Origin: Nakaseomyces glabratus
Lineage: Eukaryota; Ascomycota; Saccharomycetes; Saccharomycetales; Saccharomycetaceae
Assembly: GCF_010111755.1 (NCBI RefSeq)
Contig: NC_088958.1
Coordinates: 558,001-622,000, forward strand
DNA length: 64,000 nt
Direction of reading: 5' to 3'
The notes beneath the pieces were generated by a model. That model was not told the origin of the DNA, did not search any database, and saw nothing but the letters and a program-made list of their open reading frames with translations. Position numbers and translations under genes: made by a program. This document shows, one piece after another, positions 40,521 through 54,027 of this stretch; positions within the stretch are counted from its first letter, which is position 1, and each line of letters starts with the position of its first letter.

Positions 40521-41866
40521 TGTAAAATAGTTAATAATTTGTTGTGTAGTTTTGTTACCTTTATGAATATGATTCTATTAAATGCTACATTTTTTGTTGG
40601 GGGTCGCTAAAGATACAAGTTAGTGTTCCTATTTATATAATCGAATAAGTGCTAGTAGCTTAATTGACAACAATCAATGGCAATATTAAACCGGGGAAGG
40701 GTGATGTCCGTTATTATTTCCGCCGTGCTTCCTCCATTTCCGAAAGGAATTTTCTCCCATGAGAGACAACGCCATGATTTCCCGGGAGTACCTCTTAAGT
40801 CAAGTTTGTTCAATGAGTTCAGAGCTGGGTCTGTTTGCCCATTAGGTATTTGAGTTTGTATATGAGGGCACCCTGCCTGTGCTCAAGTCCAGGGGGATCG
40901 ACGAAAGTTCCTAATTCCCACAGTGAAAATCTCGCTGCGCGCCATTCTTCTTCCGTATTATCTAATCTATGATCGTTGATGAACTGTTTATTCTGTACTG
41001 CGTACGTTGCTGTCAAGTACGACCTTTGTCCCGGGTTCGTGGTCAAGGTCAAGGTCGAGTAGCTCTGGAAGTACAGAGAAAGAGCAGGAGAAAGTTTCGT
41101 TTCTCCCTCCTCCCTTTCCCCTGGCAGTTAACAGACACGCAAGATTTATCAAGAAGGTGATTGCCATGTTGCGAGATTTATGGATCTAATGTCGCCAGCA
41201 TCAAATGTCCCAGAAAGTGAAGCATCTCGCTGCGGTGTATATGCTGAGTTCACACTCTGTACCTCTTGTACCTCTTGTACCCCTGTAACTCTGTGTGGAT
41301 ATACCATGGATATGGTGTATATGGATATTGCATGGATATTCTATTCAGAACGGGAACAGGGAAAACACGGAAAACATGAGCATTCTGGGAGAGATAGCTC
41401 CCGTACGATTGTTCTGGGTCCCCTTGTCCCAGGAACTTCTGGTACGGGTTTGTACCTATCTTATTCCCGTCCCTCCATATGCAACGGAGTTCTTACTCCC
41501 TGCAGCTGTCCACTGCTTCCACTGCTTCCACTGCTTCCCACTCTCTCTCCCCTCTCACTACAGACAAAACCGTGCACGCAGAGATTGAAAAGCAAAACAA
41601 AAAAGCGGACGAGACAACGGCTATTATTCCCATTGATCCCGTTGGGAAAAGGTAAAGCGTTTCGCCCGGCAGAGCAGTGATGTCATACGTATTCCTAGCC
41701 GTGCGGCCTTTGCGTGGAACTTCAAAATCCTGCTTTGTGTCTTTTCTGCTTCCACGGTCTTCTCTCTCTGCGTTGCATTTCCTCACCCTAGCAATCGTAT
41801 TACCCGGAACAAAAGAAATGGGTTGTTTGTGCTGTGTGTTGTGTGCAGAGAAGTAAAAAAAACTAA
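40521..41866. other. Intergenic region FLR2 to tRNA-Leu, rich in short tandem repeats
   Basis: The FLR2 promoter should lie in the first few hundred bases. From about 40860 to 41800 the DNA is less AT-rich and full of short direct repeats: TACCTCTTG twice from 41260, ATGGATAT several times near 41307-41340, and CCACTGCTT three times at 41510-41536. Long open frames cross this part on both strands (41180-41680 plus, 41493-42110 minus), but one overlaps the tRNA gene and neither resembles a known family. Confidence 0.55.
41855..41862 (-). terminator. RNA polymerase III terminator of tRNA-Leu
   Basis: A run of eight T on the minus strand starts four bases after the end of the tRNA, as expected for Pol III termination. 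Confidence 0.85.
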
Positions 41867-41975
41867 TGAGAGATAAGGGATTCGAACCCTTGCATCCGAA
41901 GATATCAGAGAATTTAAGCTTTAAGTGTTTCAACTCACCTAAATCTGACGCCTTAAACCACTCGGCCAACCTCCC
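41867..41975 (-). tRNA. tL(UAG): tRNA-Leu (anticodon UAG) with a 27-nt intron
   Basis: The gene folds as a class II tRNA. The acceptor strand starts GGGAGGT and pairs with ATCTCTC with two G-U pairs. The D-arm contains GGCCGAGTGGTTTAAGGC and the anticodon stem is TCAGA/TCTGA. The long variable arm is TATCTTCGGATG and the T-arm AAGGG-TTCGAAT-CCCTT includes the B box. The anticodon loop reads TTTAGG before an intron (41911-41937, with a possible one-base shift), giving UAG, which reads CUN leucine codons. The same tRNA in S. cerevisiae also carries an intron. The discriminator base is A. Confidence 0.93.
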
Positions 41976-42373
41976 AGTGTTTCTGTGTGAGAACTTTGGT
42001 TGTGTAGAATGCAGTTGTTGAATATCAAATTTTCTTACAGACAAAAAATAATCAACTTTGACAATTCGAATAAAGTAACAATGTATAGCCTGAGAGCGTA
42101 AGAATTTCAAACAAAATCAACATATACATTTAACTTATTTTTAAAAGCTTATATTCTCTATATTCTAATATCTTTTTTTTTTTACTGGGAGTTGTGTTAG
42201 GTTTGTACCTATACTTTCCATAAAGGTGGCAAAGGGGGTTAGGTCTCACGAAAAAATCGGCAAAGCTGCTACTATTTCAAAGCAAGTGGGCACTTTACAA
42301 AGTTTATAAAGGATCGAATGGCCTGTATCTTAGGTGTAAATTTCGGTCATTGACAAGCACAGCCAGATAGGAA
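41976..42373. other. Intergenic region tRNA-Leu to PRE10
   Basis: This region contains the PRE10 promoter with a perfect PACE element at 42225-42233 and a T-rich tract at 42172-42182. No gene was seen. Confidence 0.6.
42225..42233 (+). promoter_or_regulatory. PACE element (GGTGGCAAA), Rpn4 site of PRE10
   Basis: This is an exact proteasome-associated control element, about 140 bp upstream of the PRE10 start. Rpn4 binds it to coordinate proteasome gene expression. Confidence 0.9.
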
Positions 42374-44867: not shown

Positions 44868-47489
44868 TCACACTTTTCTGCTACCACTGTTGCTATTTTG
44901 GGTGTTATTCGACTTTAAAAATTCGTATCTACCTAACAATGGGATATGGTCACTTGGGAACTTGTCATTAGGGAAACCAATAAAGTTGGATACATATTCG
45001 CTGTCTACTTCACCCAATAGGCCACGTACTCTCAATGCCTGAGAAGAGAACCATATATAGTCGATAACGTCAGTGAAAGAAGGAGTGAAATTGGTGAATG
45101 CCAGTTCACCAATACAGTTATAACTTGATTTCAAAGCTAAGTTATGAGAGAAGTTATCTTCCGAGAAGTAACCGAAATCTCTGTCCTTACCATCATGGTG
45201 ATGTTGTACACGGCCAGTGCTGAAAAGTTCATACACGGAGGAAGATAAGTAGGAGTTCAAATCACCACAAATAACCAGTGGATATTTCTTTACATCTTGT
45301 TTTGGATTTTGTTCCTTCAACAGGGTTTCCATGTGATCCAATAAAACACCGACTTGGAATGTTTTGACATCATTGAATTTTGGATCCCAGTGTAAATGAG
45401 TAGTGACTAGCCACATTATTTCTCCAGATTGGATGTGTTGTAATTTCATGACAATTGCAACGTTATCTTTGTTCATAGCACGGTTTAGATAGTCCTCCGT
45501 TCTTTGGAACTTCTTATGTTTCATCCATAGACCACTGAAATCCACACATTCCTTAAATAACATCTTAAACTTTGAAGTTTTATAAAAAGCACAGCAACCA
45601 TCAACCTTCTTCGAATCCTTTGATTGCATAGTCTTGGCTCTCGTTTTCGCATGGAATAAACCAGTATAACCATGCTTCTCTAGCAAGGGTTGCCAGAAAT
45701 CCTCAAATGTCTTGGCTTCAACTTCTTGTAGACAAATTATATCGGTATTAAAATTTAAAATTTGTTCCTTAAGCTTCTCCCTCCTGTAATCCCAACTTAA
45801 AGCCCAAGATGGTGTATAACGATACATTTTGGGAGTCGCATAATGTTGGCACAATGTATTGTAAGATAGCATTGTAAAACTTTTCTTTTGCATATCGCTA
45901 GATAGGTTCCTTTCTGCTTCCTGTACAGTATCGTATTCCTTTTCTGGCTCACCGTCAGCATTAATCTCAATAAACTTACGGTCATGTGGATATGGAACCT
46001 CTGGTCTATTATCTCTCAAGTAAAAGATCAACCCTGTAAATGATTTCTCAGTCAAAATCTTCAGCAATTCTTTGTCAAGCGGATTACCTTCACAGCCCAA
46101 GAATTGAATGTTGCAAAGGTTTCCTAATTCCCAAGGTAGTGTTGTAATTTGGTTATCAAAGAAATATAAGTATTTCAATTGATAGCAGTTACCAATTTCC
46201 TTAGGCAGTTCCTTCAATTTATTATGAGATAGATCTAAAACTCTCAAGTTCTTTAGGTTTCTAATTGAAGATGGGATGGATTCAAGGCCATTACCATTCA
46301 GATACAATCTAGTTAAAAAATCATATTTCATCAAATTTGGGCTGATGTTAAAAATCTGTAGATTGGAAAGATCGATAGCATGCCATATTTGATCGTTGTA
46401 CTTAGTGTCTTTTGGAGCCACCATGCGATTTTCGACTTCGTCATCCTCATCAATGCTATATTGAGACAATTTCTTATGCTGTAGTAGTAAGGAAGGAGTT
46501 GAAGGTTGTTCACGAGAATTATTCATGTCTATCTTAGATGTTGTTGGCGTAGAAATAGTGGAGTTTGTTGTTGTTGAAGCTGTATTTGGGGCGGACATGC
46601 CTTTGAGTTTGGAGTCATCTGGAGCCATAATATCCATTAGTGCCTGTTTGGTACAATCCACCAAAGACTTGGATGTCTCAGCAATCTGGGATTGTGCCTG
46701 AGCCTGCTGTTGTGTTTGATTTTGTGGTGGAACCTGTGTCGCTAGATATTTTTTCATGGCGTTTTGTCTAGCATATATATTGGGCTGTCCAACTGATTGT
46801 GCGGAAACAGTAGCTAATTGCAGTTGTAATTTCCAAATTGGATTGTTCATAAGTGAGGGGTCTTCTAGGTGAGGATGGTACATAGGATTGTTTGCATTAG
46901 CGTTAGGTTGAATTGGTGGGGCAGCCAATTGACCTGGGGTGTTTCCGAAAGTTGAAATTCCTGGCATTCCGGAATTCATATTGCCTCCTGCCAATGAGCT
47001 ACCGCCAAGATTTCCAATGATGTTGTTATTTCTTAACACATTGGCGTTGCCCATTGGTATATTGTTATTGCCACCAGTATTATTATTGTTCATTCCAACA
47101 TTGCCATTGTGGGCACTACCATTCCCCATTGGCATCCCACCCATTGGTAACTGCATTTGAGCCGCAAGACTGTCCTGCTGTTGTTGAGGAATTCCCATGT
47201 TGTTGGGGTTCTTATTGATTAACTGGTCCAGTAATTGGTGAGAGTTATTATTTGGGATTCCAGACACTGGGTTACCACTCATCAAGCCATGATTAATCAT
47301 GTTCTCATTTCCAGTATTCGAACCTGCTCCACCCATCATCATCCCAGGTGGTGGCAAATTTGTATTCATCATATTCATCATGGTATGGGGTTGCATTGAT
47401 ATAGGTTGTTGTTGTGGTTGTTGGGCTTGCTGTGGCTGCGGCTGTTGTTGTCCCATTCCAGGGTACCCCATCATTGATATGTCATTCAT
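44868..47489 (-). CDS. CCR4: CCR4-NOT deadenylase Ccr4
   Basis: Ccr4 is the catalytic poly(A) exonuclease of the CCR4-NOT complex, the main cytoplasmic deadenylase. The protein has 873 residues. The N-terminus [16 protein letters not shown] opens a Gln/Asn/Met-rich region. A leucine-rich repeat block at about 375-485 (for example [19 protein letters not shown]) binds the NOT scaffold via Caf1. An endonuclease/exonuclease/phosphatase domain covers about 535-865. Its active-site blocks are [46 protein letters not shown] and PSDHIPLLG. All catalytic blocks are present. Order CCR4-ATS1-FUN30 matches S. cerevisiae chromosome I. Confidence 0.96.
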
Positions 47490-48750: not shown

Positions 48751-49882
48751 TTACAGAATTGCTAATGTGTCATTGCTTACAATCCATGTAGTTGCACAAC
48801 CTCCATAGACCATTGGTCTTGAAATGGCTTTTGCAACTGGATTTAAGGGACTTGTGACATTATGTTTGTCGTTTACCCATTGCTTTTCTTCATGGTCTTG
48901 CACTGAACCACAGTTACCGTGTTCACCCCAACCCCAACAACTCAATTGATACAGTTCGTGGTCGTTATGGTCTCTGTCCTTTGATACCAGTATGCCGTGT
49001 TCACTGCCAGTAGTGAAATTAGCAATACATTCACTAGGTGATAGCTGGCTTTGGTCGAATACTTGGCCATGAATATTGTTCCCATAGGAGTGTATCTTAT
49101 TCGGATCCGATTTATCTCTAATGTGAATAGAACTCCACATACTTTTAACCTCAAGTTCTTTAGCAAACTTCCATCGTGTTTCAAAATCTTTAGTAAAATC
49201 TTCTGGGGTTTTACCATTGACATGAATGATCTTACCTTGTGGGGTCATGAGCAGGTTGAAATCTTTGCCCATCACTACGTTAGCCACTCTGATTTCAAAG
49301 GTTTCATACATTACTATGGGACTAGCCAGTCTTCTACTCTTGGGTTCGTTTATTTGGCATTTAGTATTGTTTCCCCATGCATAGACAATGCTACCATTGT
49401 CTTCTTTTTTGTCCAGTACCAATATGCAGTTTTGAAAAGATGAATAAACTCGGTAACCTGCATACTTAGAGCAGTCCATTACCAATTCAAAGTTGGATTT
49501 ATTCTCTAGATTACTACTACCAAGCCCTAGTTCACCTTTTAAACCAGAACCCCTGCTATAAACTTTCCCATCGGCTGTAACGATAGTAGTGGAGTCCCAG
49601 CAACAGGTAACATCTATGACATTATACCCTGAACAAATCTCCTTCCACCCGATAATCTGTTTGGCTTGATCATCGGAGCAAAGTTGGCCTAGGGAGTTAT
49701 CACCACATCCCAAGACTCTGCCAGTGGAGAGTAATATCACTGTATGGTTACCACCACAGCTTATCTTCGTTACATCTATATCAGTCGGCAAGTCCAACGA
49801 CTTTATCGGTATCATCGTGTCTTCATCATGATCGAGGCCTAAGTTGGTAGTTACCGTTAGAACCAAACCCGTAGACCAACAT
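48751..49882 (-). CDS. ATS1: Kti13/Ats1, RCC1-like protein, predicted to need +1 ribosomal frameshifting
   Basis: Ats1/Kti13 is an RCC1-like beta-propeller that binds Kti11/Dph3 and supports Elongator-dependent tRNA wobble modification and diphthamide synthesis. The gene is split into two frames. Frame 0 starts at ATG 49882 and reads MLVYGFGSNGNYQL, then stops four codons later. The rest begins in the +1 frame with GLDHDEDTM and runs to 48751. S. cerevisiae Ats1, as I recall it, begins [22 protein letters not shown], so the two pieces join exactly at CTT-AGG-C (49843-49837). That heptamer is the Ty1 +1 frameshift signal. The frameshifted product has about 376 residues. Later blocks are CGGNHTVIL, YAWGNNTKCQINEPKSRRL, ATGSEHG-type strands and GGCATTWIV. 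Initiation inside the +1 frame, at the Met of DTM, would lose the first propeller strand. It lies between CCR4 and FUN30 as in S. cerevisiae. Confidence 0.92.
49837..49843 (-). promoter_or_regulatory. Programmed +1 frameshift heptamer CTTAGGC in ATS1
   Basis: CUU-AGG-C is the minimal Ty1 slip site. The leucyl-tRNA on CUU slips to UUA while the ribosome waits for the rare arginyl-tRNA reading AGG, and then GGC is read. It sits at codons 14-15 of ATS1, exactly where the conserved protein changes frame. The unshifted frame ends at TGA after 18 codons. Confidence 0.88.
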
Positions 49883-50646: not shown

Positions 50647-53600
50647 ATGTCCGGAAACGAAGGCACTGAGGGCCAGCCGGGCAACAATCTATCTCCTGTT
50701 CAGTACAAAACTGTATCTTCTTCTCCATTGAAACCCGAAGCGAGTACTCAGGATGCACAGAAATTACGCGAACAGTTTGTTTTCAAGCCCAATAATAATC
50801 TCTCTAGCGCCATCACGAGTACAGGTCAAACAGCGTCATCTGCCACAAGTGGTACCGCAGCTCCTGTAAATCCAAATGCATTTGAATCGTTGGTGGCTGA
50901 ATTTCCAGACTTTTCGCAGACGCTAGTGCAAGCAGTCTACAAATCTAACTCTTTTGATTTGTCTCTTGCTAGAGAAAGGCTTACAAGAATTCGGAACCAG
51001 AGAAAGAACTGGGTCAGCTCAAAGAATTTAAACTCAAATGTTGCTCGTGGAAGCAGGGCTGCTAGTACTGGTACGGGGAGATTAAGTGGCATTAATAATA
51101 CATCTGACTCTTCAAAAATTGTGTTGGAAAAACAGAAGAAATCTATCTTCGATAGATATTCGAGCGCTGTAAATAGTAATGCACAGAACAGTGGAATCAA
51201 CTCTGAGCTGTTTGAAAAAATGCAACGTAACGGAAGTCATAAGAAGAGAAAGCTTGTCAGAGGCGATAAATTGGCTGGTGATGAGAGTTATGTAGATAGC
51301 TCAAATTCTCAGTTAGCTAAAGCAAAGCAACAGCTACTGAAAAGTCGTAATAAAAAGTTCAATCTTTCTGATGATGAAGAGGAAGTAGGCAATGATAATG
51401 GAGACTTTTCAGACGCTAGTGGAGATGAATACGAGGAGCATACTCCTGTGGCTAATATTGATGATCAGATCTTGGAATTTTTGAATAACTCTGAAATAGA
51501 TGATATTATGGATTTGGGTGAAGTTTCTTATGAAAGAGCTAAAATAATTCAATCCGCAAGACCCTTCACTTCCTTGTATTCGTTTTCTCAACAAGAATTT
51601 TTGACAGAAGAAGAGAAGGAAAAGCAGGCTAAACTTCTAGCTCAGCCTAAGAAGAGGGGTAGAAGAGGAGCTGCCCAAAGAAAGGAAGGTGAGAAAGTTC
51701 TAGATAGAGTTTCACAAGCTATGAGAGGTTATAATGCCATTGAATCTGTCATCAAGACATGTTCACAATATGGTAAACTAGTCTCCTCTCAAATAAAAAA
51801 ATGGGGTGTCAAAGTAGACGCGGAAAATGGTGATGATGGAGAGCTTGATTTTATTAATGTTGGTTCTGAAACTGAAGGTGACGCCATTGTTGAGGATTTT
51901 AGCTCGTCCGCTCAAACTCCAGCACCCGAAATGTCAGATAGCGAAGGCTCAGAAGAAATTAAGCTTGAAGATGTCAATAAGAAACTCGAGAGCACTACTG
52001 ATAATAATAACAAGGACGATGGAGCCACACTTGAAACTGCTTCAGAACCTAAGCTTGACACTATGGAAGAGAAGGATAAAACCACTGACACTTCTGTTGA
52101 AAAAACTGAAGAAAATACGGCTAATGTCAAGGTAGAAGACACAGACAAAGCAAATGACGATCCAGATAGCGATTTTCAGGCTGATGAAGAAATGGAATTT
52201 ATTGATGAGGATGAGGAAGATGAGGAATACGATGAAGAACTTCCGGTAACAAGAAGGACTAGGAATACTGGCGGGAATTTCAGAAAGGAAGTTGTGAAAA
52301 AGAATAGTGTTGTTAAATTTTTCAGAGGGAGACCAAAACTTCTAAACCCTGATGTTTCATTGAAAGACTATCAACAGACTGGTATCAACTGGCTAAACTT
52401 ATTATATCACAATCAAATTTCTTGTATATTGGCTGATGATATGGGTCTGGGAAAGACATGTCAAGTCATATCTTTCCTAGCTTATTTGAAACAAATCGGT
52501 CAGCCAAGTCCGCATTTGATTGTGGTTCCTTCTTCGACGTTAGAAAACTGGTTGAGAGAATTCCAAAAATTTTGTCCTTCATTAAAAATTGAGCCATATT
52601 ACGGTACTCAACAAGAAAGAGCTGATCTTCGAGAGATATTAGAGCGTAATGATGGGAAATATGATGTTATTGTCACAACATATAACCTTGCTGCAGGTAA
52701 CAAGTACGATGTATCATTTTTGAAGACCAGAAATTTCAATGTAGTTGTATATGATGAAGGCCATATGTTAAAGAACTCAATGTCTGAGAGATTTAATAAG
52801 CTGATGAGAATTCATGCTAATTTCAGGCTGCTTCTAACGGGTACACCATTGCAAAATAACTTAAAGGAGCTAATGTCTTTGTTAGAGTTTATTATGCCGA
52901 ATCTTTTTGTATCCAAAAAGGAGTCCTTAGCTGCAGTTTTCAAACAAAGGGCGAAGACATCAGATGATAACAAGGGACACAACCCTCTGTTGGCTCAACA
53001 AGCAATCACCAGAGCGAAGACCATGATGAAACCATTTATTTTACGTAGAAGGAAGGATCAAGTGTTGAAGCACTTGCCTGCAAAGCATGTCCGTACCAGT
53101 TACTGTGCAATGAATGACACTCAGAGGGAGATATACAACCGTGAAGTGAAGCTTGTAATGGAGCACAAGCAAATGATCAGGGATGGCACATTACCTGAAG
53201 ACAAGAAAGAGCGTAGTAAGATTGAGAACAACAGCTCAAAGAATTTGATCATGTCTCTAAGAAAAGCATCTATTCATCCATTATTGTTCCGTCACATCTA
53301 TGATGACGCGAAGATAGACAAGATGTGTGATGCGATTTTGGATGAGCCAGCTTACGCGGAGAATGGTAATAAGGAGTATATCAGGGAGGATATGAGTTTT
53401 ATGACTGATTTTGAGTTGCACAGGCTATGTTGCAACTTCCCTAACACACTAGGTGATTATCAGCTGAAAAACGATGAATGGATGAATAGTGGTAAAGTGG
53501 ATGCTCTAAAGAAGTTGCTAGATGATATCATCAACAAGAAACGTGAGAAAGTGTTGATCTTCACACTGTTCACGCAGGTGTTAGATATCCTGGAGAAAGT

Positions 53601-54027
53601 ATTGAGCACCTTGAACTATAAATTTCTGAGACTCGATGGGTCCACCCAGGTGAACGACAGACAAACGATGATCGACAAGTTCTACGACGATAACACCATC
53701 CCCATCTTCATGCTATCTACCAGAGCAGGTGGGTTTGGTATCAATCTGGTGTGTGCGAACCATGTGATCATCTTCGACCAAAGTTTCAACCCACACGACG
53801 ATAGACAGGCGGCCGACAGAGCGCACCGTGTGGGCCAGACCAAGGAAGTCACAGTGACCACGCTGATTACCAAGGACAGCATAGAGGAGAAGATCTTCCA
53901 GCTGGCGAAGACCAAGCTGGCGCTGGACAGTCAAGTCAGCAGCAGCGAGGACCAAAGCGATCTGATAGACAACAAGGTCAGCGATCTCCTGGAAGACATC
54001 ATATACACAGAAGCTCAAAAGAAGTAA
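50647..54027 (+). CDS. FUN30: Snf2-family chromatin remodeler Fun30
   Basis: Fun30 is the SMARCAD1-type ATP-dependent nucleosome remodeler involved in silencing, DNA end resection and heterochromatin. The protein has 1126 residues (yeast 1131). A CUE-type motif lies at about 77-110 (FESLVAEFPDFSQTLVQAVY). A long acidic stretch at about 380-535 precedes the ATPase. Motif I is DDMGLGKTCQ at about 597, motif II DEGH at about 703, followed by LTGTPLQNN. The C-terminal lobe contains LRLDGSTQVNDRQ and QAADRAHRVGQTKEV at about 1054. All helicase motifs are intact. Codon composition becomes more GC-rich in the last 300 bp. Confidence 0.96.
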   Translation: MSGNEGTEGQPGNNLSPVQYKTVSSSPLKPEASTQDAQKLREQFVFKPNNNLSSAITSTGQTASSATSGTAAPVNPNAFESLVAEFPDFSQTLVQAVYKSNSFDLSLARERLTRIRNQRKNWVSSKNLNSNVARGSRAASTGTGRLSGINNTSDSSKIVLEKQKKSIFDRYSSAVNSNAQNSGINSELFEKMQRNGSHKKRKLVRGDKLAGDESYVDSSNSQLAKAKQQLLKSRNKKFNLSDDEEEVGNDNGDFSDASGDEYEEHTPVANIDDQILEFLNNSEIDDIMDLGEVSYERAKIIQSARPFTSLYSFSQQEFLTEEEKEKQAKLLAQPKKRGRRGAAQRKEGEKVLDRVSQAMRGYNAIESVIKTCSQYGKLVSSQIKKWGVKVDAENGDDGELDFINVGSETEGDAIVEDFSSSAQTPAPEMSDSEGSEEIKLEDVNKKLESTTDNNNKDDGATLETASEPKLDTMEEKDKTTDTSVEKTEENTANVKVEDTDKANDDPDSDFQADEEMEFIDEDEEDEEYDEELPVTRRTRNTGGNFRKEVVKKNSVVKFFRGRPKLLNPDVSLKDYQQTGINWLNLLYHNQISCILADDMGLGKTCQVISFLAYLKQIGQPSPHLIVVPSSTLENWLREFQKFCPSLKIEPYYGTQQERADLREILERNDGKYDVIVTTYNLAAGNKYDVSFLKTRNFNVVVYDEGHMLKNSMSERFNKLMRIHANFRLLLTGTPLQNNLKELMSLLEFIMPNLFVSKKESLAAVFKQRAKTSDDNKGHNPLLAQQAITRAKTMMKPFILRRRKDQVLKHLPAKHVRTSYCAMNDTQREIYNREVKLVMEHKQMIRDGTLPEDKKERSKIENNSSKNLIMSLRKASIHPLLFRHIYDDAKIDKMCDAILDEPAYAENGNKEYIREDMSFMTDFELHRLCCNFPNTLGDYQLKNDEWMNSGKVDALKKLLDDIINKKREKVLIFTLFTQVLDILEKVLSTLNYKFLRLDGSTQVNDRQTMIDKFYDDNTIPIFMLSTRAGGFGINLVCANHVIIFDQSFNPHDDRQAADRAHRVGQTKEVTVTTLITKDSIEEKIFQLAKTKLALDSQVSSSEDQSDLIDNKVSDLLEDIIYTEAQKK

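Follow-up and report, generated by a model that had tools for sequence, protein, structure and literature searches.

A CTT-AGG-C heptamer where the two reading frames of ATS1/KTI13 meet in Nakaseomyces glabratus suggests a programmed +1 ribosomal frameshift

The gene for Kti13 in Nakaseomyces glabratus (C. glabrata) is divided between two overlapping frames which meet at the heptamer CTT-AGG-C. We infer that expression of ATS1/KTI13 relies on a programmed +1 ribosomal frameshift like those of Ty1 and ABP140, by far the likeliest reading, to which we assign a probability of about 0.9. The junction at the heptamer, the occurrence of the same type of signal in further genes of the genome and the set of tRNA genes found there all favour a programmed shift. 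The list of cellular genes known to depend on +1 frameshifting is short, and such genes are truncated when annotation allows one frame per gene. The product of ATS1 is a cofactor of both Elongator and diphthamide synthesis, two pathways serving the accuracy of translation.

Results

The window, as the whole stretch analysed is called here, spans 64,000 nucleotides. On its minus strand the codons from the ATG at 49882 are ATG TTG GTC TAC GGG TTT GGT TCT AAC GGT AAC TAC CAA CTT AGG CCT CGA TCA TGA. The 0 frame translates as MLVYGFGSNGNYQLRPRS and closes after RPRS with the TGA at 49828-49826; the part preceding the heptamer, from the ATG up to CTT-AGG-C, is MLVYGFGSNGNYQL. The +1 frame reads GLDHDED... 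from the GGC at 49839 down to a stop codon at 48753-48751. Upstream it is open as far as 49935, and its first ATG, at 49815, corresponds to residue 23 once the frames are fused. An ATG-led frame ending at RPRS, and a long frame lacking any ATG ahead of the GLDHDED block, were both described by the sequence-only reading, and both are borne out. When the A is skipped, the frames yield a product of 376 residues with no further stop. Coordinates are collected in Table 1.

Table 1. Location of ATS1/KTI13, its parts, neighbouring genes and other features discussed (window positions, except for the LLP1-like gene)
Feature	Position	Strand	Remarks
ATS1/KTI13, both frames joined	48751..49882	-	376 residues if CTTA is read as one Leu
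0 frame	49826..49882	-	ATG, 14 codons including CTT, then RPRS and TGA
+1 frame	48751..49839	-	GGC onward, 362 codons and stop
Slip heptamer CTT-AGG-C	49837..49843	-	A to be skipped at 49840; best junction score, tied with preceding codon
Leucine-rich repeats and endonuclease/phosphatase domain, neighbour	44868..47489	-	domain match
SNF2-type ATPase, neighbour	50647..54027	+	domain match
tRNA-Leu(UAG) gene with intron	41866..41976	-	aragorn, introns allowed
LLP1-like gene (L102, L115)	G000:C3, site 485281, +1 frame to 484843	-	split at CTT-AGG-C

Alignment of the fused product with the solved Kti13 of S. cerevisiae (E 1.1e-74) covers residues 3-368 and crosses the junction without a gap, the stretch concerned being VYGFGSNGNYQLGLDHDED; the gap-free NYQL-GLDHDED sequence expected if CTT slips to TTA and GGC is read next is thus recovered. 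By sequence similarity, which is full-length and includes the RCC1 repeats, the gene is the ortholog of Kti13, in line with the name first proposed for it. The neighbours agree with this assignment. The SNF2-type ATPase occupies the place of FUN30, and the leucine-rich-repeat nuclease that of CCR4; the domains of both fit the order CCR4-ATS1-FUN30 of S. cerevisiae. A search of the genome (12.7 Mb; 12,726,212 bases in 13 contigs) gave no second copy of ATS1; apart from the gene itself, the protein matched a single stretch, 27% identical, inside another large ORF. Relatives of the protein were absent from the viral contigs and prokaryote genomes scanned, as expected for a yeast gene.

The downstream frame might be made alone, with no shift, from Met23 (49815) after reinitiation or leaky scanning, or else from a near-cognate start; in favour of this, the 0 frame has a mere 18 codons and its stop is close to that ATG. 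Such a product would be devoid of the beginning of RCC1 repeat 1, a conserved part. The RCC1 match drops from 77.1 bits in the fused protein to 47.6 bits in the downstream ORF alone, and the local score from 166 to 92 in the tested stretch. Upstream of the heptamer the +1 frame translates as CWSTGLVLTVTTNL, which does not have the likeness to Kti13 found in the 0 frame. A separate start is consequently regarded as very improbable.

The place of the shift was assessed by scoring against Kti13 the 36 stop-free single-shift fusions possible in the overlap. The top score, 164.5, went to the peptide that results when the frame moves by +1 at either codon 13 or codon 14 (the CTT of the heptamer), the two yielding one and the same sequence; the runner-up (160.5, +1 shift at codon 11) lies four score units below. 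Taken by itself, the alignment leaves an uncertainty of a few codons in the position of the shift, which the heptamer narrows further. The claim that the frames join at CTTAGGC holds in this sense, the heptamer standing at the best-scoring junction, tied with codon 13.

Alternatively, an intron might end at TTAG within the heptamer, TAG being usable as a 3' splice site and TTCTAAC at 49862 being similar to a branch point; splicing would then connect the long frame with an exon further upstream. S. cerevisiae LLP1 was itself formerly annotated as spliced (PMC12661321). In the 800 bases upstream, the 5' splice site GTANG[TA] is absent and GT[AC]TG occurs once, and the part removed would encode the conserved start of Kti13, which makes splicing scarcely credible.

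CTTAGGC occurs 389 times in the genome, counting both strands, or about 1.5e-5 per position and strand. By simple arithmetic, the chance of finding it at the two tied codons is about 3e-5, and at any of the 19 overlap codons about 3e-4. In-frame CTT-AGG-C was found in none of the 12,296 codons of 25 other window ORFs (of the 30 listed, two leaving the window, two overlapping other ORFs and ATS1 were excluded). Even if an inserted base had landed precisely at a Leu-Gly codon boundary, window codon usage would give this heptamer with a chance of about 0.0056. The earlier argument that a random disruption would hardly fall on this heptamer is thereby given figures. They bear directly on the supposition that the assembly carries an extra base, either a sequencing error or a strain-specific mutation inactivating an ordinary gene. 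The two frames do differ by a single base, and the assembly represents one strain. In S. cerevisiae ATS1 has an uninterrupted frame, which counts against a programmed shift. Yet an extra base would leave the exact heptamer as a coincidence, the junction site is not a homopolymer run, the rest of ATS1 is intact, and the A. gossypii gene has been independently listed as shifted (PMC3737163, in the part cited). Altogether, an extra base is an improbable explanation.

The genome contains further genes whose expression calls for a slip of this kind. The ABP140-like gene comprises 198 codons, CTT-AGG-C, and then 336 codons with a methyltransferase domain; EST3 comprises 87 codons, CTT-A-GTT, and then 92 codons. 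The description of CUU-AGG-C as the ABP140-type site, and of the EST3 site as related to it, holds in this genome too. A further split gene, at 485281, is taken to resemble LLP1/YJR112W-A on the basis of heptamer and layout. Its ATG-led frame reaches a stop in six codons, CTT included, and its +1 frame counts 144 codons; the nearest ATGs lie 8, 23, 45, 51 and 60 codons ahead of the site. No Pfam family was matched by the two separate pieces of the protein (401-base stretch).

The LLP1-like gene emerged from 55 sites examined among the 387 CTTAGGC sites other than those of ATS1 and the ABP140-like gene. These 55 are the first in contig order of the subsets CTTAGGCA and CTTAGGCC, plus the window sites, and make up a non-random sample. 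At none of 35 control sites (31 in loci L065-L094 and 4 in the window) does an ATG-led frame lead to the site with a +1 frame of at least 100 codons following; the longest +1 run among them (L085, 246 codons) is not preceded by an ATG-led frame. The frame-junction pattern was seen at one of the 20 CTTAGGCC sites, viewed with 200-base flanks, and hence at one of the 55 sites overall, the LLP1-like gene in both counts.

As to the bases at and around the sites, those of ATS1 (window 49843-49835, minus strand), the ABP140-like gene (L006) and the LLP1-like gene (L102) all read CTTAGGCCT, coding Gly-Leu after the shift, and ATS1 and the ABP140-like gene have 13 of 14 bases in common (CTTAGGCCTYGATC). 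C comes next after CTTAGGC in just 72 of the 389 occurrences; the LLP1-like gene was drawn from CTTAGGCC sites and is hence no independent case. Genome-wide, CTTAGGC is less frequent than the reversed word (389 vs 678). Its scarcity might be a sign that strong slip sites are avoided, the reversed word being a crude control that differs in more than the frame; for this reason scarcity was dropped as evidence for frameshifting.

The genome holds what the Ty1 mechanism requires of tRNAs, a slipping tRNA-Leu(UAG) and a scarce tRNA-Arg(CCU). Four tRNA-Leu(UAG) genes were found, one of them in the window. By anticodon, the 16 tRNA-Leu genes matching one exact pattern, which could miss variant genes, divide into 4 UAG, 1 GAG, 3 UAA and 8 CAA, figures that are gene counts and not tRNA levels. 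A single tRNA-Arg(CCU) gene was found, 67 bases of which are the same as in the S. cerevisiae gene. Genes for tRNA-Arg(UCU) number at least nine (9 among the 30 tRNA loci extracted).

Folding of three stretches at the ATS1 site revealed no stimulatory RNA structure beyond those of shuffled sequences (z +1.03, -0.56, +1.44).

Discussion

In the mechanism proposed, a ribosome that has read 13 codons would pause with tRNA-Leu(UAG) on CUU, because the following AGG is served by the single-gene tRNA-Arg(CCU). The Leu-tRNA would then re-pair onto UUA, GGC would become the next codon, and the 376-residue Kti13 would result. Ribosomes failing to shift would terminate shortly after, releasing a peptide of 18 residues. 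Slow reading of AGG and re-pairing of the Leu-tRNA from CUU to UUA have been described for the bare heptamer in S. cerevisiae, which shifts at about 40% (PMC12661321, in the part cited). Since no fold at ATS1 beats shuffles, the basal rate is a fair expectation, and the shift on ATS1 may by analogy approach 40%. ATS1 has the heptamer (CUU_A.GG_C), the two tRNAs and the expected slip in common with Ty1 and ABP140. In S. cerevisiae ABP140 an upstream stem-loop lifts the shift to about 60% (PMC12661321); no comparable fold was detected at ATS1, nor at the ABP140-like site of this genome (z 0.17, -0.06).

Close parallels are two genes of S. cerevisiae, YJR112W-A/LLP1, a known +1 frameshift gene, and YFS1. 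According to the sections cited of PMC12661321, in both, as in ATS1, CUU_A.GG_C lies near the message's 5' end, with a short 0 frame, and a proximal stimulator was not found. They encode other proteins, and there reporter assays and ribosome profiling support the shift, whereas on ATS1 it is deduced from sequence. Z. parabailii BIR1 (CTT-A-GTT) and YJR112W-A (CTT-A-GGC) likewise go beyond the classical three, being again genes other than ATS1 (PMC5433688, in the part cited).

The sequence-only reading knew of no description of frameshifting in ATS1. This stands for C. glabrata, for which no report was found in the literature covered, mostly the main text of open papers, and fails for the gene as such. 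The 2013 re-annotation of A. gossypii includes ACR287W (ATS1) in a one-line list of seven +1-frameshifted genes, the other six being EST3, ABP140, OAZ1, YJR112W-A, CIN4 and IOC2 (PMC3737163). The gene is the same as that described here; the listing, in the part cited, names neither heptamer nor position. It supports the frameshift reading and lowers its novelty. A pseudogene survey that included C. glabrata set aside EST3, OAZ1 and ABP140, leaving ATS1 unnamed in its main text as far as cited (PMC2876123), and the main text of a 2025 survey of S. cerevisiae, to the same extent, is without ATS1 or KTI13 (PMC12661321). What is new is the ATS1 heptamer, its place and the species; the kind of frameshift and the listing of ATS1 in A. 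gossypii were already known. Together, the two species make ATS1 a test case for the gain or loss of frameshift sites among yeasts.

It is tempting to ask whether the ATS1 frameshift may act as an autoregulatory sensor of wobble-uridine modification, though we consider this rather unlikely. As AGG is the hesitation codon at the ATS1 site, low Kti13 could raise its own synthesis. Kti13 supports Elongator, whose mcm5 modification of tRNA-Arg(UCU) aids the reading of AGG; scarcity of Kti13 would slow this reading, and more slipping on CUU would produce more Kti13. The listing of ATS1 in A. gossypii as well would suggest that such a device is old in this yeast family, or arose more than once. Loss of Kti13 lowers Elongator modification to about 20% (PMC6356722, in the part cited). 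tRNA-Arg(CCU) is essential in elp3 cells, which the authors take to mean that AGG is not read efficiently unless tRNA-Arg(UCU) carries mcm5; in their dual-luciferase assay, +1 shifting increased when mcm5 was absent, for tRNA-Arg(UCU) among others (PMC4627075, in the part cited). Against the feedback, loss of elp3 caused no rise in a Ty1 reporter at CUU-AGA-C or AAA-AGG-C (ratios of 0.80 and 0.74, not significant), the rows considered of this comparison covering these two sites and not CUU-AGG-C (PMC4627075). A model of a shift regulated by the pathway of its own product, through polyamines, is offered by the antizyme gene OAZ1 (PMC12661321, in the part cited). OAZ1 slips on GCG_U.GA_C at a stop codon, unlike ATS1 with its CTT-AGG-C, and regulation of ATS1 by its pathway is a proposal. 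If the slip rate answers to the decoding of AGG, ATS1 would offer a direct way of testing whether the fidelity of translation controls its own maintenance.

As a minor observation, the tRNA-Leu(UAG) gene of the window lies about 8 kb from ATS1; its product is the very tRNA predicted to re-pair from CUU to UUA.
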